The notes under the pieces were generated by a model that ran no database searches, had not been told where the DNA came from, and saw only the letters and a program-made list of their open reading frames with translations. Shown in pieces: positions 13,683-22,605 of a stretch of DNA of 64,000 nt (position 1 is its first letter; each line of letters begins with the position of its first letter). This DNA is from Bdellovibrio sp. KM01 (lineage in GTDB: Bacteria; Bdellovibrionota; Bdellovibrionia; Bdellovibrionales; Bdellovibrionaceae): NCBI RefSeq assembly GCF_013752535.1, contig NZ_CP058348.1, forward strand, positions 1,054,001 to 1,118,000, given 5' to 3'. The position numbers were made by a program, and so were the translations under genes.

Positions 13683-13928
13683 ATGGGACGTGTTGTTAAA
13701 GGGATTAAAGACAAAGAGTTGGGCAAGCTGGTGAGGAATTTGTCGAAAAATCTGCACAGGGAGCGGACTAGGCTAGGGTTCACTATGCAAGGTCTGGCCT
13801 CGATGGCTCAGATGGCGACCTCCACAGTATTTGAAATTGAAAATGGAAAAGTCGAAGATGTGCGCATGAGTACAATCACGGCACTCGCGCGCCAGTTGGA
13901 TATAGATCCGTTGGATTTATTAAAATAA
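13683..13928 (+). CDS. Small XRE-family HTH regulator
   Basis: 81 residues. The cro/cI-type HTH covers residues about 18-75 (RERTRLGFTMQGLASMAQMA, then STVFEIENGKVEDV). There is little beyond the DNA-binding domain, so any sensing is by a partner. It precedes the DUF4010 membrane protein by 29 bases and is divergent from the chemoreceptor. Short palindromic AT-rich runs such as GGATATATCC upstream could be its own sites. Confidence 0.9.
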   Translation: MGRVVKGIKDKELGKLVRNLSKNLHRERTRLGFTMQGLASMAQMATSTVFEIENGKVEDVRMSTITALARQLDIDPLDLLK

Positions 13929-13957
13929 AAAATAGTACTAAGTTGAGTTCAGGCGAA

Positions 13958-14806
13958 ATGAAAAAGTGGTTGCCCTATATGATAGTGATTGCGGTGCTCT
14001 TGGCAGCATCTTTTGTGGTACCTCACCGCACGGTGGATCCTTGGGGTCTATTTAATCCCTACAGTCTTATCCGAATTTTATTAGCACTGACGGCGCTTCA
14101 AGTTTTTAGTTCTTTACTGATGAGTTTTTTACGCGGGCACCATGCCGGCCTGTTGTTGGGTTTTTTAGGTGGATTAATTTCCAGCACCGCCTTGGCAGTT
14201 TCCCTTTCTAATCAAAGCCAGGACTGTTCGGAGGATGAAGCGCGGCTGCTGAGTCTGACTTACTTAAGTGCTCTTTTGGGAACGGTTGTACTAGCCGCTG
14301 TTTTATCTATGATTGGCTCGGATCAGCTCAATTGGAGATTGCAAGGCGTCTTTCTTGGGCCAATTGTAGTGAGCCTGTGGCTGGTCGTGTGGCGAGCTCG
14401 TTCTATTCAAAAGATTCAATTTAAACCTGATTCCATTCCGACTTTAAGTGTGAAATCTGTACTTTCTCTGGGTCTTATAATCATGTTGTTTCTTGTTTTT
14501 TCAAAAGTGCTGCAGACCTATTTGGGAGAAGTGGGGCAGTACTATTTAACATTCTTGACCTGCTTGTTTGAGCTTCACGGTTCCATTATTGGTAATACAC
14601 AGCTTTTACAAAATGGCACTGTTAATGCCGCGACAGCGGGGAATTTATTCGCCTTGGGAATTTTGGCTTCTTATATCGCAAAAATGGCTATCGTGATTGT
14701 GATGGGAAGTCGGTCCTTTAAGAAACGTATTATCAAATACACGGGTTGGCTGAGTTTATCTTTAATCGTCGCCTGGGTGTTTGCTTCGGCAGCGCTTGCA
14801 TTTTGA
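13958..14806 (+). CDS. DUF4010-like polytopic membrane protein (MgtC-related)
   Basis: 282 residues from the ATG at 13958; a TTG at 13943 is an alternative. About eight TM helices. GGLISSTALAVSLS (about 70-84) matches the GGxxSSTA signature of DUF4010, the membrane domain often fused to MgtC. It lacks the N-terminal MgtC part. Function is not established; the family is often linked to cation homeostasis. Probably one operon with the XRE gene. A terminator follows. Confidence 0.75.
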   Translation: MKKWLPYMIVIAVLLAASFVVPHRTVDPWGLFNPYSLIRILLALTALQVFSSLLMSFLRGHHAGLLLGFLGGLISSTALAVSLSNQSQDCSEDEARLLSLTYLSALLGTVVLAAVLSMIGSDQLNWRLQGVFLGPIVVSLWLVVWRARSIQKIQFKPDSIPTLSVKSVLSLGLIIMLFLVFSKVLQTYLGEVGQYYLTFLTCLFELHGSIIGNTQLLQNGTVNAATAGNLFALGILASYIAKMAIVIVMGSRSFKKRIIKYTGWLSLSLIVAWVFASAALAF

Positions 14807-14813
14807 GAAGTGC

Positions 14814-14848
14814 AAAAAAAATCCCGGCTCCTCGCCGGGGATTTTTAT
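14814..14848. terminator. Bidirectional terminator between DUF4010 gene and degP
   Basis: ATCCCGGC pairs with GCCGGGGAT (one bulged G), flanked by A8 on the left and T5 on the right. Confidence 0.85.
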
Positions 14849-14900: not shown

Positions 14901-16340
14901 TTAAGGCGTATCGATGTTGATGATTTGAATTCTGGAATTGCGAGCAATACGTAAAGTGTTGCTGCCTTTTTTCAAATTCTTCAAAACGTCTTTGGAATTT
15001 GAAACCGCTTGCTTGTTCACGTCCAAGATCACGTCTCCCACGGCCAGGCCCGCTTTGCTTGCCGCCGAGTTGCGAGTGGTCTCAATGACAATGGGTTGTT
15101 TCATGTCATCAGGTAAGCCCCATTCACTGCGGATGGCAGGGGTAGGGTCGATGATTGTAAAGCCCACGTTGAATGGAGCTTTTTGACCGTCGTATTTTTT
15201 TACATCTGTTTTTCTGAATTTTACGTTGTCTTCAGGACGCTCGGCAACGACCACACTGACAGTCATCGGCTTTCTGTCGCGAATAATTTTCGCCTGAGTC
15301 GGTTTGCCAATCGAAGAGTCGCTGACAGCATCCACCAGGCTTAATGAACTATCGATCGTGCGACCATTAAACTCGGTCACGATATCGTAAATTCTAAGAC
15401 CGGCACGAGTTGCGGGACCGCGAGGATCAAGCTGAGTGATCACAGCACCACTTTGCTCGCCCATTCCCAGGTACTCGGCGGCTTCCGGATCAAGATCTCC
15501 CAAGGCTGCACCAATCCAGCCGCGCGCGATGCGACCTTTGGATTCAAGTTGCGGGATCAAAGCTTTCACTTCGTCGATTGGAATTGCAAAACCGATACCT
15601 TGAGCGCGTGCATCGATTGCCGAGTTCACACCAACCACCATGCCTTTGGTATTCACCAAAGGACCACCCGAGTTACCCGGATTGATGGAAGCATCTGTTT
15701 GAATCAAAGGGATCTTGTTGATCTCGGCAATGCCGCGACCTTTCGAGGATACAATCCCTTTAGACATCGAGTGGCCATGGCCAAATGGATTACCGAAGGC
15801 TGCAACCCATTCACCGACTTCAAGGTCTTTCGAAGAACCCAAAACCGCCACAGTTAGTTTTGTTTTTGGTTTGATTTTGATAAGTGCGATGTCCGTGCGC
15901 TCGTCGCTCCCGATCAATGTTGCTTCGTAAAGGTCTTTGGAATCTTCACTTAATTGAACTTTGATTTGGTCAGCCCCTGCGATCACGTGATTGTTCGTAA
16001 CAATCAAACCGTCTTCACGAATGATAAAACCCGTTCCCAGGCCCATCATCTGGGGTTTTTGCTGTTGCTGAGGTTGCTGCATGCGCAGGCCATACAGCTG
16101 CTCTAACATATCCAGCATTGGATCACGTCCGCCGCGTGGCATGTTCTTGGGAATCGCCGTCGTTGAAATATTCACGACCGCAGGATTGATTGCTTTCGCC
16201 AATTCCACAAAAAGATTTGCAGGAAGTGGAGCCGTCAGATTCATTTTCGGGGGATCTTTGGGAAGGCTTGAGGATTGAGCCTGAGATTGGGGACCTGCCA
16301 CCAGGGAGGTCGCGACTAGAAGGAATAAAAACTTCTTCAT
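14901..16340 (-). CDS. degP: Periplasmic serine protease, DegP/HtrA family
   Basis: 479 residues with a signal peptide (cut near SQAQS). The trypsin-like triad is intact: His in TNNHVIAGAD, Asp in RTDIALIKI and Ser in NPGNSGGPL. A Q-rich loop (about 85-95) corresponds to the flexible LA-loop. PDZ1 (starting about GWIGAALGDL) and PDZ2 (about FNVGFTII) follow. It degrades or refolds misfolded envelope proteins. Monocistronic, with a shared terminator downstream. Confidence 0.95.
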   Translation of the reverse strand: MKKFLFLLVATSLVAGPQSQAQSSSLPKDPPKMNLTAPLPANLFVELAKAINPAVVNISTTAIPKNMPRGGRDPMLDMLEQLYGLRMQQPQQQQKPQMMGLGTGFIIREDGLIVTNNHVIAGADQIKVQLSEDSKDLYEATLIGSDERTDIALIKIKPKTKLTVAVLGSSKDLEVGEWVAAFGNPFGHGHSMSKGIVSSKGRGIAEINKIPLIQTDASINPGNSGGPLVNTKGMVVGVNSAIDARAQGIGFAIPIDEVKALIPQLESKGRIARGWIGAALGDLDPEAAEYLGMGEQSGAVITQLDPRGPATRAGLRIYDIVTEFNGRTIDSSLSLVDAVSDSSIGKPTQAKIIRDRKPMTVSVVVAERPEDNVKFRKTDVKKYDGQKAPFNVGFTIIDPTPAIRSEWGLPDDMKQPIVIETTRNSAASKAGLAVGDVILDVNKQAVSNSKDVLKNLKKGSNTLRIARNSRIQIINIDTP

Positions 16341-16446: not shown

Positions 16447-16695
16447 TTAAACTGAAACAAACTTCATTTGCAGATCGTTAATTAGGTTATCTAAAAATTG
16501 CGCCTCGTCAGAACTTAGGTTGCCTTTGGTTTTTTGCTGCAGCACCACCAAAAGATCGATGTTAAATCGAGCCATATTTTTATCTTTAGAAGTCTGGCCT
16601 GTTTGTGGATCCGGGGCCAAACCCATTGCCATTACGGCAGAAGAGGCTAGGGACATAATAAGAACTGATAATGAAGCTTCCATTTTTTCTTGCAT
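16447..16695 (-). CDS. DUF1844 family small protein
   Basis: 82 residues. MEASLSVLIMSLASSAVMAM, then GLAPDPQTG and LQQKTKGNLSSDEAQFLDNL, matches the DUF1844 pattern of a short hydrophobic helix, a PDP turn and a helical hairpin. No biochemical role is known to me. The ATG at 16695 is preceded on the minus strand by AAGGGTG. Single gene between degP and the HtpX-like gene. Confidence 0.85.
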   Translation of the reverse strand: MQEKMEASLSVLIMSLASSAVMAMGLAPDPQTGQTSKDKNMARFNIDLLVVLQQKTKGNLSSDEAQFLDNLINDLQMKFVSV

Positions 16696-16741: not shown

Positions 16742-17623
16742 TTAGATCGGATAGTAACCCATTAGCTTTTGCAGGCGGGTTTCAATCGACGGATGGGATT
16801 TTAAAAACAAATTCTTTTGCTTAAAACCCTCGGGATTCACAATAAACAAATGGCTGGTGCAAGCCGGGATCTCTAAAGGTTGAGTTTGCGCAAGGCCCTC
16901 AAGTCTCCACAAAACTTCGCCCAAAGGATGGCGATTATTTAATAATTCAGACGCCATGAGGTCATTTTCAAAAAAAGACTTTTCACCCACAACCGCTTTG
17001 ATAATCAACCAACCAATCGGCGACAACAGCGGCATAAAGAATTGCAAACGATAGGGTAGGAATGAATCTAAAAATTGTCCCAAGCCTACAACTGAGTTCG
17101 CAAGCGTCGAGCTGACGCTGAAGGCAAAAGTATCCAAGCGACGAATGTGACAAAGTTGATGGGCAACGACCGCTTCAAGTTCTTTGGCGCTTAACTTTTG
17201 CAAAAGACCCAGTGTGAAACCCAAAGAACCATTTTTCCAGGAATGCCCCACGCAAAATGCATTCACGGAAGAGTGCGGAGTCATAAATACTGCTGGTGCC
17301 GGCATGCCCAGTTGGTGGGACATGCGCTCCACCATATCCAGAACGCCCCAGGCATCTTGGCCTTTCACGCGTTGGGCGCGAAGTTTGAACAGTACGCGGT
17401 TTTCGCCATAAAAGAACACGATGAAATTTAAAAGCAGGGCTAATAAAAATCCAATAATTAATCCCAAACGTTCGCCGAACTGGTAGCCCAAAATAAGCAG
17501 CGCTAAGGATGTGGATAGAATGAAAACCCAAACTTTCGTGTTCGTATTCGTCATATTGATTTTGTCCCATTGAACCGGGTTTTTTTCAACGCGTACAAGT
17601 GGTGTAACGCCATGCCCGTCCAA
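16742..17623 (-). CDS. HtpX-like M48 membrane protein with degenerate active site
   Basis: 293 residues if started at 17623; an internal ATG at 17554 (MTNTNTKVW) gives a more usual HtpX N-terminus of two TM helices. The fold markers of HtpX are present: PAPAVFMTPHSSVNAFCVG, GLLQKLSAKELEAVVAH and two later TM helices. The zinc motif that should read HExxH is AHQLCHI, with Gln in place of the catalytic Glu (codon CAA). The second-ligand region, normally EFxAD, reads FFEND. It is therefore probably proteolytically inactive, or has a non-protease role. Confidence 0.82.
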   Translation of the reverse strand: MDGHGVTPLVRVEKNPVQWDKINMTNTNTKVWVFILSTSLALLILGYQFGERLGLIIGFLLALLLNFIVFFYGENRVLFKLRAQRVKGQDAWGVLDMVERMSHQLGMPAPAVFMTPHSSVNAFCVGHSWKNGSLGFTLGLLQKLSAKELEAVVAHQLCHIRRLDTFAFSVSSTLANSVVGLGQFLDSFLPYRLQFFMPLLSPIGWLIIKAVVGEKSFFENDLMASELLNNRHPLGEVLWRLEGLAQTQPLEIPACTSHLFIVNPEGFKQKNLFLKSHPSIETRLQKLMGYYPI

Positions 17624-17770: not shown

Positions 17771-18763
17771 GTGAGCGAAGTTGATATCATGGCGTTAAAC
17801 GCCGCGATCAAACAAGAAAGTCAATTCATCGACAAGATGATGACAGAGATCAACAAAGTTGTAGTCGGTCAAAAGGAAATGGTCGAAGGGATCATGATGG
17901 GTCTTTTGACGGGCGGTCACATCTTGCTTGAAGGTGTTCCCGGTCTTGCAAAGACACTGACAATTTCCACAGTTTGTAAATCCATTTCATTGGATTTCCA
18001 ACGCATTCAATTTACTCCGGATCTGTTACCGACGGATTTGATCGGTACCATGATCTTTAATCCCAAATCAGGAGAGTTTGCCCCTCGTAAAGGTCCTATC
18101 TTTACGAATATCGTTTTGGCCGACGAGATCAATCGTGCTCCGGCAAAAGTGCAATCGGCGTTGCTTGAGGCGATGGCGGAAAAGCAAGTCACGATCGGTG
18201 ATGAATCGTACAAACTCGCAAATCCATTCTTGGTTCTGGCAACCCAAAATCCATTGGAGCAGGAAGGTACTTATCCACTTCCAGAAGCCCAAATGGACCG
18301 TTTCATGTTTAAGATCAACGTGGTTTACCCACATAAAGGCGAAGAGCTTGAGATCCTAAACCGTATGGGTACGAATGAAAAACCCGTGGTGAATCCGGTG
18401 ATTTCTAAAGAAGACCTGTTGCGTGCTTCTGAACGTGCTGACCAAATTTACGTAGATAACAAAATCAAAAACTATATCGTGGAAATTGTGATGGCTTCCA
18501 GAAAGCCAGCGGAATACGGTCTTAGCCGTATCGCAAATCTTATCAACGTCGGTGGTTCACCGCGTGCGACGATTTGCTTGTTCCGTGCAGCGAAAGCCCA
18601 TGCGTTCCTTCGTGGTCGCGGTTACGTGACAGCAGAGGACGTAAAAGCCATTGCTTACCACGTGATGAGACATCGCTTGATTCTGACTTACGAAGCTGAG
18701 GCAGAAAACATCAAGTCTGATGACGTGATCAAAGAAATCCTAAGCCAGGTAGAGGTTCCATAG
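17771..18763 (+). CDS. moxR: MoxR-family AAA+ ATPase
   Basis: 330 residues from a GTG with GGAGGAA directly upstream. Walker A is LEGVPGLAKT, Walker B is VLADEINRAPAKVQ, and sensor 1 is ATQNPLEQEGTYPLPEAQMD, all diagnostic of MoxR. MoxR ATPases act as chaperones that activate VWA-domain partners, here the DUF58, BatA and BatB proteins encoded next. The stop overlaps the next start by one base (TAGTG). Confidence 0.95.
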   Translation: MSEVDIMALNAAIKQESQFIDKMMTEINKVVVGQKEMVEGIMMGLLTGGHILLEGVPGLAKTLTISTVCKSISLDFQRIQFTPDLLPTDLIGTMIFNPKSGEFAPRKGPIFTNIVLADEINRAPAKVQSALLEAMAEKQVTIGDESYKLANPFLVLATQNPLEQEGTYPLPEAQMDRFMFKINVVYPHKGEELEILNRMGTNEKPVVNPVISKEDLLRASERADQIYVDNKIKNYIVEIVMASRKPAEYGLSRIANLINVGGSPRATICLFRAAKAHAFLRGRGYVTAEDVKAIAYHVMRHRLILTYEAEAENIKSDDVIKEILSQVEVP

Positions 18764-19632
18764 TGGGATTGCCTCCAGAGGTCTTAAAGAAAGTTAAACT
18801 GCTGGAGTTGAACACAAGAAAACTTGTGAACAACCTCTTTGCAGGCGAGTACCATACGGCTTTTAAAGGTCAGGGTATGACTTTCGCGGACTTCCGTGAG
18901 TATGTTCCTGGTGACGATGTTCGTTCGATCTCCTGGCCGCTGACTGCGCGCACAGGAAAAACCTTTATCAAAACTTTCGAAGAAGAACGTGAGCTGACTT
19001 TGATCATTGCGGTCGATGTCAGTGGTTCCAGTGATTTCGGAACGGGTCCTTATTTCAAGGGCGAAGTGATGACTCATATGGCAGCCTTGCTTGCGTTTTC
19101 GGCTGTTAAGAATAATGACCAAATTGGTTTATTGCTTTTCAGTGATCAGGTGGAGCATTTCGTTCCGCCGAAAAAAGGCCGTGGCCACGTTCAACGTTTG
19201 CTGCGTGACCTTTATTACTACAAGCCCAAAAGTCACAACACCAAACTTTCCAATGGCTTTAGCTTCCTTCAAGGGGCTTTGAAAAAGCGGGCAACTATTT
19301 TCGTATTTAGCGACTTCCAGGACGAGGGCTTTGATCAAAGTTTGCGCTTGCTGGGAAGAAAGCACGATGTGGTGGCGTGTGTTGTGAATGATGCTGCCGA
19401 ATACTCTTTGCCAAGCATGGGCGTGATTGAAGTTCAGGATGCCGAAACGGGAGAAGTATTAACCGTCGATACATCGTCTGCAAGTTTTAGAAAAGAATAC
19501 GAGCAAGCTGTTCAGGCCCGAAAAGAAACTCGGGATAAGTTATTGCGTAAGGCCCAAGTGGATCGCGTGGATGTAAAATCCAGCGAAGATTTTATTGATC
19601 CTTTGGTTGCGTTTTTTAAGAAGAGAAAATAA
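18763..19632 (+). CDS. DUF58 protein with degenerate VWA fold
   Basis: 289 residues from GTG at 18763. The conserved GxxxxxxxGxGxxFxxxREYxxGDDxRxIxW block is seen as GMTFADFREYVPGDDVRSIS, followed by the VWA-like AVDVSGSS with a DxSxS metal site. It usually works with MoxR as part of Bat-type assemblies at the membrane. Overlaps both neighbours, so it is translationally coupled within the operon. Confidence 0.94.
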   Translation: MGLPPEVLKKVKLLELNTRKLVNNLFAGEYHTAFKGQGMTFADFREYVPGDDVRSISWPLTARTGKTFIKTFEEERELTLIIAVDVSGSSDFGTGPYFKGEVMTHMAALLAFSAVKNNDQIGLLLFSDQVEHFVPPKKGRGHVQRLLRDLYYYKPKSHNTKLSNGFSFLQGALKKRATIFVFSDFQDEGFDQSLRLLGRKHDVVACVVNDAAEYSLPSMGVIEVQDAETGEVLTVDTSSASFRKEYEQAVQARKETRDKLLRKAQVDRVDVKSSEDFIDPLVAFFKKRK

Positions 19633-20534
19633 TGGCTGCGATTCAGTGTAAAGTTGAAATTCCAAAAGTCGATGGACTCAAAGACGGGGAGCTGACGGTT
19701 GGCCGTGAATTCTTGCTTGTCTGCGAGGGGGAGTTTCCTAAAACTTTGCAGCGAGATAAACTTCAATTGGTTCTGCAGCCGGAACAAAAATATACCATTG
19801 CTTTACGTGGTTTTGAATTCCGATCGCCGACAGAAGCTGATATTAAAATCACTTCGTACACTGCGGGTGGCGTAAAGTTTGATAATCTGCAAATCACAGA
19901 TGGAACAACGACTTTAGATTTGGGACCGGTGCAATATCAGCTAGTCAGTGTGTTGCCTCCACCAAAGCCACCAAGTCAACCCGGTGAACAAGCTCCAAAA
20001 CAAGAACCCTTTGGTCCTATTGGCCCGATGAGCATTCAAGTGCCAATGATGTATTGGGGAATTCTTGCTGCTTTTATCGGGATTATCGCGTTATTTGTCG
20101 TGACAAAGATTTTCCGTTCTTTGCAGCGTCGTAAAATTATCGAGCGTTTAAAAGAACATGATTCAGCTCTTTCACCTTTGGCAGAGTTTCATCAAAAATT
20201 CCGTCGCATGCAGCGTGAAAACACGGTCTTTTTTGGTGGCACTCCAAAATCCGAAGATATTCCGTTGGCACTTGATGAAACACGGCACATGTTAAAGCTG
20301 TATATCACTCGCCGCTACAGAATCCCGGCGTTGGAGTGGGGGCCGCGTTTAATTTTAAAAGATCTTAAAAAGTATCATCCGAAAGTTTACCAAGAAACAG
20401 GCAGCGAGCTTGAAAAACTGGTGAAAGAGTTTTTGCATGCGGTTGAAGATCGCAGCAAATTAAGTGGCTCGGATGTTTTGAATCTTTCTAAGCGCACGCG
20501 TTTGCTGGTTGAGGAAATGGAGAGATTGTCATGA
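19632..20534 (+). CDS. Bat-operon membrane protein, DUF4381-like
   Basis: 300 residues. An N-terminal beta-rich domain (1-115) without a recognised signal peptide is followed by a Pro-rich linker, one TM helix (about 138-160) and a cytoplasmic helical domain with ALEWGPRLILKDLKKYHP. Position between DUF58 and batA, and the TM-plus-helical tail, match the DUF4381-type members of bat operons. Overlaps batA by four bases. Probable scaffold of the complex; inference. Confidence 0.75.
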   Translation: MAAIQCKVEIPKVDGLKDGELTVGREFLLVCEGEFPKTLQRDKLQLVLQPEQKYTIALRGFEFRSPTEADIKITSYTAGGVKFDNLQITDGTTTLDLGPVQYQLVSVLPPPKPPSQPGEQAPKQEPFGPIGPMSIQVPMMYWGILAAFIGIIALFVVTKIFRSLQRRKIIERLKEHDSALSPLAEFHQKFRRMQRENTVFFGGTPKSEDIPLALDETRHMLKLYITRRYRIPALEWGPRLILKDLKKYHPKVYQETGSELEKLVKEFLHAVEDRSKLSGSDVLNLSKRTRLLVEEMERLS

Positions 20535-21541
20535 CAATACACTCTCCCTTGGCTTTCTGGCTTTTACTACCCCTGATTGCTGTCGTCGTTTGGGTTTTAT
20601 GGAGAAAGAAAACTAAAACTCCCACTTTGCAGTTTGGATCGGTTCAAGTTCTAAAATCCGTGACCCCAAGCATTCGTACGCGACTGTTAAATATTCCTTT
20701 GATTTTGAAAGCCCTGGGAATAGCCTTTGCGATCTTTGCATTGGCAAGACCCCAGGAAATGAATACGAAAATCAAAAAAAATGTGGAAGGCATCGATATC
20801 GTGATCGCTCTGGATATTTCAGACTCCATGCTGATCGAAGATATGAAGCCTCTGAATCGTTTGGAAGCTGCCAAAGAAACAATCAAGCAATTTATTAGTG
20901 GGCGTAGCTCTGACAGAATTGGTCTTGTGATCTTTGCCGGGGAATCGTTCACGTTGGTGCCGCCGACTTTGGATTACCAATTGATTCTTTCCCGCGTAGA
21001 TGAAATCACGACGGCAGCCAGTGCCCGTATCAAAGACGGAACGGCTTTGGGTGTGGCTTTGGCCAATGCCGCTGGTCGCTTAAAAGATTCCCAAGCAAAA
21101 AGCCGCGTCGTGATCTTTATGACCGACGGGGAGAATAACTCGGGCACGATCGATCCGGAAACGGGTCTTGAGATCGCGAAGGGTTATGGGATCAAAATCT
21201 ATTCAATCGGTATCGGTAAAGACGGTCCGACTCGTATTCCAATTTATACCCGTGATATCTTTGGTCAAAAAATTAAAACCTATCAGCCCTTTGACTCCAC
21301 CGTGAATGAAGACCTTTTGGGTCGTATGGCAAGTCAGACGGGCGGTAAATACTACCGTGCTTCCAAGGAAGACTCTTTGAAAGGTGTCTTTAAAGACATC
21401 GACTCATTGGAAAAAACGAAAATCGATGTGAATAAGTTCACGAACTACACCGAGAAATATCCGCCCTATCTTGTGGCCGGTATCATTCTGTATTTGGTGG
21501 GCTTGCTCTTGGGTCGTACATGGTTAAGGAGGGTGCCGTAA
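20531..21541 (+). CDS. batA: BatA, membrane VWA-domain protein
   Basis: 336 residues. Two N-terminal TM helices, then the VWA domain with an intact metal-ion-dependent adhesion site: ALDISDSMLIEDM (DxSxS), the Thr in KDGTALGVALANA, and FMTDGENN. A C-terminal TM helix follows. BatA and BatB present VWA domains to the periplasm and partner with MoxR; the operon was first linked to aerotolerance in Bacteroides. Ends in TAATG overlap with batB. Confidence 0.94.
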   Translation: MTIHSPLAFWLLLPLIAVVVWVLWRKKTKTPTLQFGSVQVLKSVTPSIRTRLLNIPLILKALGIAFAIFALARPQEMNTKIKKNVEGIDIVIALDISDSMLIEDMKPLNRLEAAKETIKQFISGRSSDRIGLVIFAGESFTLVPPTLDYQLILSRVDEITTAASARIKDGTALGVALANAAGRLKDSQAKSRVVIFMTDGENNSGTIDPETGLEIAKGYGIKIYSIGIGKDGPTRIPIYTRDIFGQKIKTYQPFDSTVNEDLLGRMASQTGGKYYRASKEDSLKGVFKDIDSLEKTKIDVNKFTNYTEKYPPYLVAGIILYLVGLLLGRTWLRRVP

Positions 21542-22605
21542 TGTTTAGATTTGAAAACATGGCAGCTTTTAATTATCTGTGGTTGATTCCAGCGATCATC
21601 ATCATTGGTTATTTCTTTGATCGCAGGGCAAAAAAGGCGATGGAAAAGGCCATTGGTTCCCGCCTGTACCCATTCCTGTCCAGCTCCGTTTCGCAAAAGA
21701 AACGTACCATTAAGACTGTGTTTCAGGTGCTTGCGGTTTTCTTCTTTGTTCTGGCATTGGCTCGCCCACAGTTTGGACAAAGCAAACAGGAAGTGAAAAG
21801 TGAAGGTGTTGAAATCATCTTTGCTGTCGACGTTTCTGAAAGTATGATGTCTGAGGACGTAAAACCCAACCGTCTGACTCAGGCGAAAACGGAACTCAGC
21901 CGTTTGGTTGATCTGATGCCGGGAAATAAAATCGGTGTGATGGCTTTCGCGGGTTCTGCGGCGCTTTTGTCGCCTCTGACAAATGACCCAGGTGCCGTGA
22001 AAATGTACATCGATGCCTTGGATACGAATTCAGTTTCCAGCCAAGGGACAAGTTTCCAGGAAGCTCTCTCTAACGCCAAAGATGCCTTCGAGCGTGGCGG
22101 TGTTTCAACGGATGATACAGTCAAAGTCACACGCGTGATCATTATCGCCTCTGACGGTGAGGACCACGAGCCGGGGGCTTTGGAAGCTGCAAAAAAATTA
22201 GCTGAAGATGGGACACGTATTTTCACAGTCGCTTATGGAACTGAAAAAGGTGGCGCGATTCCTGTGCGAGATGGCATGGGCTTTTTAAAAGGCTATAAAA
22301 AAGATCGCAGCGGCCAAACGGTGATCACGACCGTTAAGGGTGATGCTTTACGTGCCTTGGCTGAAGCCGGTAAAGGCAGCTTCTATACAGCAACAGTTGG
22401 TGGCGATCAAGTTAAGCACTTGGTTGAAGACATCAACAATTTAGAGAAAACGCAGTTCGATACGACGATGGCCACTCAGTACGAGGAGCGCTTTCAAATT
22501 CTGCTGATAATTGGAATTTTGCTTGCGATGTTTGAGCTCTATATCGGTGAAAGACGTAAAGGCTTCCGTTTCTGGAAGGGTCGCTTTGAGGTGCCTGCCG
22601 AATGA
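21541..22605 (+). CDS. batB: BatB, membrane VWA-domain protein
   Basis: 354 residues from the ATG at 21541, chosen over 21520 because AAGGAGG sits nine bases before it. Topology copies BatA: two TM helices, VWA domain with AVDVSESMMSEDV, SSQGTSFQEALSNA and IASDGEDHE, and a C-terminal TM helix. The metal-site residues are intact. Overlaps batC by four bases. Confidence 0.94.
   Translation: MFRFENMAAFNYLWLIPAIIIIGYFFDRRAKKAMEKAIGSRLYPFLSSSVSQKKRTIKTVFQVLAVFFFVLALARPQFGQSKQEVKSEGVEIIFAVDVSESMMSEDVKPNRLTQAKTELSRLVDLMPGNKIGVMAFAGSAALLSPLTNDPGAVKMYIDALDTNSVSSQGTSFQEALSNAKDAFERGGVSTDDTVKVTRVIIIASDGEDHEPGALEAAKKLAEDGTRIFTVAYGTEKGGAIPVRDGMGFLKGYKKDRSGQTVITTVKGDALRALAEAGKGSFYTATVGGDQVKHLVEDINNLEKTQFDTTMATQYEERFQILLIIGILLAMFELYIGERRKGFRFWKGRFEVPAE

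Follow-up and report, generated by a model that had tools for sequence, protein, structure and literature searches.

The window considered here, i.e., the whole stretch of 64,000 nucleotides of the genome of Bdellovibrio sp. KM01 that was analysed, contains on its minus strand a gene (16742..17554) for a 270-amino-acid membrane protein of the M48 family, recognized as an open reading frame with a match to PF01435 and referred to below as pseudo-HtpX. Its start was placed at the ATG at 17554, and the rows of the genus alignment start at the same methionine; the list of open reading frames also offers an alternative upstream TTG start of the frame at 17623. The translation of the frame 16742..17554 contains EAVVAHQLCHIRRLDTF. 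Upstream of pseudo-HtpX lies a divergent MoxR/Bat-type operon, and downstream lie the genes for a DUF1844 protein and then an HtrA protease. The first gene of the operon encodes a MoxR-type AAA ATPase (17771..18763, plus strand; PF07726, 214.5 bits), and its remainder (18763..22605, plus strand) consists of four open reading frames, which were labelled DUF58, BatX, BatA, and BatB by reading and from the order of homologues. The next gene downstream (16447..16695, minus strand) encodes the DUF1844 protein of 82 amino acids (PF08899, 94.5 bits), and the HtrA/Deg-type serine protease (14901..16340, minus strand), with two PDZ stretches, was recognized by PF13365 and PDZ matches. Convergent with the HtrA gene is a gene for a DUF4010 membrane protein (13943-14806, plus strand), preceded by a small open reading frame (13683-13928, plus strand) that looks helix-turn-helix-like by eye.

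Sigma-70-like sites showed no excess (3 compared with 4.6 expected from shuffles), and terminator-like sites numbered 9 against 4.6 (sd 2.2) from shuffles. On the minus strand such terminator-like sites occur past the end of the HtrA gene (14839..14823) and inside the pseudo-HtpX gene (16934..16917), and none was found between the pseudo-HtpX, DUF1844, and HtrA genes, a layout that would be consistent with, without demonstrating, one transcript for these three genes.

Active site of the M48-like protein

Where HExxH is expected, the translation reads HQLCH (17147..17161, minus strand). The codons for His132 (17159..17161), Gln133 (CAA, 17156..17158), and His136 (17147..17149) all fall within 17130..17180, and the first-pass annotation was right to report a CAA codon for Gln at the position of the catalytic Glu. 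It had also described the distal metal-ligand motif as altered, which alignment to canonical HtpX bears out: the position of the third zinc ligand, the Glu of ExxxD, is occupied by Phe194 (TTT, 16973..16975, minus strand), the motif reading S-F-F-E-N-D vs. R-E-F-R-A-D in the canonical HtpX of the same genome, which carries HEVAH. Two of the features by which M48 membership was judged, HExxH and the third zinc ligand, are therefore absent. Retained are Asp198 (16961..16963, minus strand), the D of ExxxD, which is kept in all rows with complete motifs, and His254 (16793..16795, minus strand; present in all 24 genomes of the genus), Pro255, and Arg260 (16775..16777, minus strand) of an HPxxxxR segment. 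For BepA the zinc ligands are given as H136, H140, E201, and the plug histidine H246, followed by P247 and R252 (PMC7950410), and judging by sequence context His254 is the probable counterpart of this plug His246. The PF01435 (Peptidase_M48) score of pseudo-HtpX is 62.7 bits, the curated cut-off being 20.3, and NCBIfam HtpX models span the protein nearly end to end (residues 7-265), although the best score of 136.1 bits is far below the HtpX equivalog cut-off of 369 bits.

Conservation within Bdellovibrio and across the order

An orthologue of pseudo-HtpX, 69 to 100% identical, is present in all 24 Bdellovibrio genomes, each time as an in-frame gene of 810 bases. Residue 133 is Gln in every one of them (codon CAA in 20 and CAG in 4), and residue 194 is likewise always Phe (TTT in 13 and TTC in 11); that both residues stay constant while their codons vary is more than chance. 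The motif is HQxxH in 23 of the 24 genomes and YQLCQ in one (L031), and His132, His136, and His254 are all retained in 23/24. Of the 270 residues 119 are invariant across the genus, and for 111 of these there is synonymous variation. The median dN/dS (Nei-Gojobori) is 0.045, with a range of 0 to 0.148, over the 28 of 276 pairs that were usable (0.02<pS<0.70), the other 248 falling outside this range; the median pS over all 276 pairs, 0.774, is near saturation. In the closest pair pS is 0.217 and pN is 0. For the same six genomes the median pN is 0.119 for pseudo-HtpX vs. 0.096 for canonical HtpX and pN/pS is 0.162 vs. 0.141, and for a second set of six genomes median pN values are 0.191 for pseudo-HtpX, 0.178 for HtrA, 0.135 for DUF1844, 0.093 for DUF58, and 0.055 for MoxR. 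The rate for pseudo-HtpX is, hence, about equal to that of HtrA, slightly higher than that of active HtpX, and clearly higher than that of MoxR. Judged by these substitution patterns, the gene is kept under strong purifying selection, and the earlier claims of an intact frame and of selection, together with the proposed comparison within the genus (a consistent Gln and a dN/dS below 1), hold. No orthologue with an intact HExxH was found among the 24 genomes of the genus or the 32 genomes of the other genera of the family; at this locus intact orthologues were seen only outside the order and, within it, in a single further family.

With a profile built from 17 orthologues, 140 genomes of the order and 290 evenly drawn genomes of the phylum were searched. 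Of the 140, 109 were examined at the locus, together with 19 genomes from outside the order, which were picked by profile score and, therefore, do not form a random sample; the remaining 31 order genomes may include real losses of the pseudo-HtpX gene. Only one of the 106 order genomes with complete motifs (109 examined) has HExxH at the locus. In the other genera of the family (HExxH in 0/32) HQxxH occurs in 7 genomes, the first His being retained in 9/32 and the second in 20/32; two members, L062 and L063, have Glu at both the third-ligand and the catalytic columns and lack the His residues of the motif. The other families of the order are represented by 53 genomes, of which 50 have complete motifs: the first His is present in 5 of these, the Glu in 19, the second His in 3, the third Glu in 1, and the Asp in all 50. 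The sole member with HExxH is L083 (G090, family f8), which also has the third Glu; HEMAR and HEVAK are found in families f3 and f5, and YQxAS in several f9 rows. The third ligand is absent from nearly all degenerate rows of the order and HExxH has been eroded in differing ways, a pattern which suggests that the third ligand was lost early and that HExxH was then free to erode. In L083 (3491-4321, minus strand) the plug His at position 254 is replaced by Gln, a residue also seen at this position in 33/52 other order genomes outside family f1.

Outside the order HExxH is present in both genomes of the class and in 12 of the 17 rows from the rest of the phylum, where the third ligand is Glu in 11 and Asp in one; the latter, L126 (3464-4306, minus strand), is an HEVAH member with KDFEAD as its distal motif. 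Thirteen of these 14 score-chosen genomes with HExxH have the gene beside DUF1844 and/or HtrA, which makes it probable that the conversion of an active protease took place at the locus itself. The pseudo state also extends beyond the order: a member from a twentieth outside genome, which belongs to another class-level group of the phylum (L224/L176; G234, family f28), is degenerate as well, with LGLAQ. Its gene (L224, 4006-4755, plus strand) stands directly before a DUF1844 gene, no HtrA or MoxR was found in the 7.7 kb stretch, and it may stem from a second conversion, separate from the first, at a locus linked to DUF1844.

The neighbourhood is widely conserved. At least one of MoxR, DUF1844, and HtrA is in place in 107/109 order genomes (24/24 in the genus, 31/32 in the rest of the family, and 52/53 in the other families) and in both class genomes. 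Taken singly and in the same sequence, MoxR is in place in 21/24, 31/32, 46/53, and 2/2 genomes, DUF1844 in 23/24, 25/32, 42/53, and 2/2, and HtrA in 24/24, 24/32, 44/53, and 2/2. The count for DUF1844, which leaves 19 order genomes without it, misses at least six by a stricter distance rule (L085, L103, L107, L112, L135, and L148), and for 8 of the 17 order genomes that lack HtrA in the count the stretch read was no longer than 1.7 kb. HtrA was not found within 3.5 kb downstream in L084 and L098. Two loci from genomes of 1.2 to 1.3 Mb (L186 and L187; G096/G095, genus g42) have MoxR only, neither DUF1844 nor HtrA being found; the stretch read for L187 extends some 3.6 kb to each side. None of the 17 phylum rows has MoxR as a neighbour, and 11 of their 12 HExxH members adjoin DUF1844 and/or HtrA, while L119, the remaining one, ends 108 bases downstream. 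This suggests that the HtpX-DUF1844-HtrA unit is older and was joined by the Bat operon in the lineage leading to the class of the window. All three catalytic patterns of HtrA are present in 89 of the 98 genomes with a long HtrA frame at the locus, the remaining nine failing a simple Asp pattern (8) or the GNSGGP pattern (1, L095); going by these patterns, the neighbouring protease has stayed intact where HtpX did not.

Lineage history, retained residues, and predicted fold

The first-pass annotation had proposed to look for a second htpX with HExxH, and a canonical HtpX was indeed found in 23 of the 24 genus genomes. All 24 canonical loci returned (one genome has two) carry HExxH and the third Glu. 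The exception is G018, an assembly of approximately 550 contigs; G018 also has two copies of the pseudo-HtpX gene on separate contigs (L023 and L032), one full and one of 181 residues, and is perhaps a mixed assembly. Two further M48 matches over the cut-off occur in the genome of the window itself, with HEIAH (L002) and HEIEH (L003).

In a tree of 93 rows, from which the four catalytic columns were left out and L149, L002, L003, L127, L156-L159, L176, L178, L179, and L145-L147 were excluded beforehand, 73 operonic-side rows split from 20 canonical rows with an SH-aLRT of 100. Pseudo-HtpX falls outside the canonical clade, and this split identifies it as a paralogue and not the housekeeping HtpX. 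This quick tree places the intact L083 among degenerate rows, with 2 as the fewest changes of state. A tree grouping all 46 degenerate rows was slightly better than the free tree and was not rejected (p-AU 0.669), in a test on 60 of the 93 rows that omitted the 20 canonical and 13 other, mostly long-branch, rows. The test also did not reject (p-AU 0.507) a second constrained tree, in which L083 was grouped with the other order rows outside family f1 (32 rows altogether) and which implies at least two losses. The trees would, therefore, be compatible with a single loss that followed the branching of the L083 lineage, and also with two or more losses within the order.

Retained positions were compared in 15 rows of the family and 27 other order rows, with long-branch rows omitted. 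Nearly fixed in the pseudo lineage, and not in canonical HtpX, are Trp9, Arg29, Gly65, Asp67, Trp69, Asp163, Trp216, and Gly266, among others. Several of these positions are shared with the nearest intact relatives, L083, L113, and L114, and, hence, mark the operonic lineage rather than the loss. Genus g17, the lowest-scoring genus group of the family, has counterparts of Trp9, Arg29, Gly65, Asp67, and Gly266 (in TQVW, GRxGL, GxD, and usually MGF) and lacks Trp69, Asp163, Trp216, and the HExxH residues except the second His; in a profile comparison it still matches pseudo-HtpX with a probability of 99.1 and an E value of 4.6e-19. Such partial retention would fit a binding role that was kept independently of catalysis.

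The AlphaFold2 model of the window protein (pLDDT 90.2, pTM 0.86) has long helices at 4-48, 141-164, and 173-188. Its matches include Ste24p (4il3; Z 11.6, rmsd 6.0, 205 aligned), ZMPSTE24 (6bh8; Z 11.5, rmsd 6.7, 200 aligned), BlaR1 (8exs; Z 11.2, rmsd 5.3, 195 aligned), BepA (6ait; Z 10.5, rmsd 3.6, 156 aligned), and the HtpX domain 3cqb (Z 9.7, rmsd 2.8, 97 aligned). For mostly helical models a Z under about 13 can reflect a common arrangement, and the assignment of the fold is, therefore, based on the higher scores of the M48/M56 rows relative to unrelated ones (Z of about 5 or below) together with the sequence profiles. Pseudo-HtpX is accordingly predicted to keep the Ste24/HtpX (M48) fold, in agreement with the earlier description of the fold as intact. 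The model for g17, built from 10 sequences (pLDDT 80.0), gives matches to the same families, with Z values that are middling for a helical model (BlaR1 Z 10.8, ZMPSTE24 8.9, BepA 8.8, and Ste24p 8.7).

Possible functions of pseudo-HtpX

Catalytic residues have been lost here in conserved relatives of an active lineage, as is the case in pseudoproteases. The E137Q mutant of the M48 protease BepA of E. coli is protease-dead and dominant negative (PMC7950410); the same Glu to Gln replacement and the absence of a counterpart of E201 make the loss of proteolysis in pseudo-HtpX highly probable. We envisage an HtpX paralogue of the operon that was originally an active zinc protease encoded before DUF1844 and HtrA and that, in Bdellovibrio and the greater part of the order, became a pseudoprotease without leaving its locus. 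The protein is predicted still to fold, is still selected, and usually stands before DUF1844 and HtrA, and it is, therefore, best read as a non-cutting adaptor or scaffold. An ancient pseudoprotease, most likely acting within the DUF1844/HtrA unit as a membrane adaptor that does not cut, is the reading to which we give close to, although somewhat less than, even confidence; its assignment as an adaptor to this particular unit, for which the partner is taken from the gene order, is tentative.

Such an adaptor might engage client segments or a partner through its old cleft, which would be plugged by the retained His254-Pro255...Arg260 segment, and could serve envelope quality control together with DUF1844 and the HtrA protease. 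In the genus His132, His136, and His254 could hold a structural zinc. HtrA and the catalytic domain of HtpX are expected to be separated by the inner membrane, and a direct contact between pseudo-HtpX and HtrA is, therefore, doubtful. DUF1844 would be the likelier direct partner, which fits L224, where DUF1844 but no HtrA is present in the stretch; L186 and L187, in which neither was found, go against it. DUF1844 has been linked to D-Tyr-tRNA deacylase in one deinococcal cluster (PMC9425974). The main text of a Bdellovibrio Tn-seq paper (PMC6561027), searched by gene name, contains no occurrence of htpX.

A more specific proposal is that the operonic HtpX-type protease became, in this order, a non-cutting membrane receptor or adaptor that couples cytoplasmic DUF1844 to periplasmic HtrA, while sister lineages still have active counterparts at the same locus. 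We consider this possible but rather doubtful; L224 would then be a second, separate conversion. If true, it would make pseudo-HtpX a bacterial analogue of the iRhoms, and this in a model predator.

The first-pass annotation had itself suggested iRhom-like regulation of an active HtpX elsewhere in the genome, in which the dead paralogue would pair with HtpX or compete for its clients and so lower its activity. The canonical HtpX with HExxH in 23/24 genus genomes and the dominant negative behaviour of the M48 mutant BepA E137Q in E. coli (PMC7950410) are in line with this. However, the conserved neighbours are MoxR, DUF1844, and HtrA and not htpX, DUF1844 and HtrA are already present where the operonic protein is intact, and the operonic and canonical lineages separate deeply. 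We regard this role, therefore, as unlikely: the genomic link is to DUF1844 and HtrA. What stands of the earlier proposal is its core, a non-proteolytic protein under selection next to a separate HtpX in the genome (Gln in 24/24, low dN/dS), and the regulation of HtpX, which is not supported, stays as a rival reading.

Alternatively, pseudo-HtpX could be a non-proteolytic part of the MoxR/Bat envelope machine, DUF1844 and HtrA being irrelevant. The divergent MoxR gene is present in 98/109 order genomes and 2/2 class genomes, and in L186 and L187 it is the sole neighbour found of the three. Its presence in 0/17 phylum rows, where DUF1844 and/or HtrA accompany 11 of the 12 HExxH members, argues against such a role, as does L224, which has DUF1844 and no MoxR in the stretch; moreover, divergent genes need only share a promoter region. 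This makes the MoxR/Bat association, in our view, a distinctly unlikely basis for function.

That pseudo-HtpX is still an enzyme, binding zinc through His132, His136, and His254 and performing altered or non-hydrolytic chemistry, seems very improbable. All three His residues are kept in 23/24 genus genomes, but both the general base and the acidic ligand have been lost, the genus member L031 has YQLCQ, and BepA E137Q is protease-dead (PMC7950410). The protein also persists where the His residues of the motif do not: elsewhere in the family, outside the genus, the first is found in only 9/32 and the second in 20/32 genomes, and in the other order families they are mostly lost (5/50 and 3/50). 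Finally, decay of the gene, a mistake in sequencing, or a change peculiar to one strain can be dismissed for the genus, even though catalytic residues vary widely among the other families of the order: orthologues with Gln133 in all 24 genus genomes rule out an error or a strain-specific change, and neutral decay is rejected for the genus by 24/24 in-frame genes of 810 bases, the absence of stops within the listed orthologue matches, the low dN/dS (pN of 0 at a pS of 0.217 in the closest pair), and a pN close to those of canonical HtpX and HtrA.

Compared with known systems, pseudo-HtpX resembles HtpX (M48B) in its M48 domain, the near end-to-end model match, and the HPxxxxR segment, and differs in lacking HExxH and the third Glu, in its sub-equivalog score, and in forming a separate clade. 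With BepA E137Q it shares the identical HQxxH change and an M48 domain with a plug His-Pro...Arg (PMC7950410). However, that mutant was engineered in the laboratory from a periplasmic protease carrying TPR repeats, whereas the change in pseudo-HtpX is natural and fixed in the genus, and the third ligand is also absent. ZMPSTE24 and Ste24p, active zinc proteases with a seven-helix chamber, are the top-scoring solved M48 structures (Z 11.6 to 10.1, rmsd 6.0 to 6.7, 198 to 205 aligned). BlaR1, an M56 sensor protease, has a similar membrane-plus-metalloprotease arrangement (Z 11.2, rmsd 5.3, 195 aligned), but with 10% identity and a sensor domain that is absent in pseudo-HtpX the likeness is one of fold only. 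The iRhoms are described as membrane protease relatives conserved without catalytic residues; they have, however, a serine-protease fold, are eukaryotic, and carry added domains, while the partner of pseudo-HtpX is a putative one. Pseudoproteases are a known kind of protein, and peptidase databases can be expected to contain inactive M48 homologues. To our knowledge, the well-studied membrane pseudoproteases are all eukaryotic, and in the titles and abstract openings of open-licence literature no natural bacterial HtpX or M48 pseudoprotease was found.

The locus offers a before-and-after series at one place, with intact sites outside the order, one intact family inside, half-eroded sites (HEMAR, HEVAK, and HQxxH), and erased ones, mostly with common neighbours. 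With such a series in a tractable predator, the purpose of a retained dead membrane protease becomes directly testable. Genes of the operonic lineage that are annotated as HtpX protease in this order probably do not, for the most part, encode proteases, and DUF1844, a Pfam domain of unknown function, gains a first lead.

Degenerate M48 genes were also encountered elsewhere in the phylum: five of the 17 phylum rows, from families f13 and f24, adjoin none of MoxR, DUF1844, and HtrA. Their motifs are RGLCR (L127), RQMTY (L156), LELVY (L157), RELCL (L158), and RELTA (L159), and in L156 and L159 the next gene encodes a ZIP zinc transporter and overlaps the degenerate M48 gene by 4 bases.
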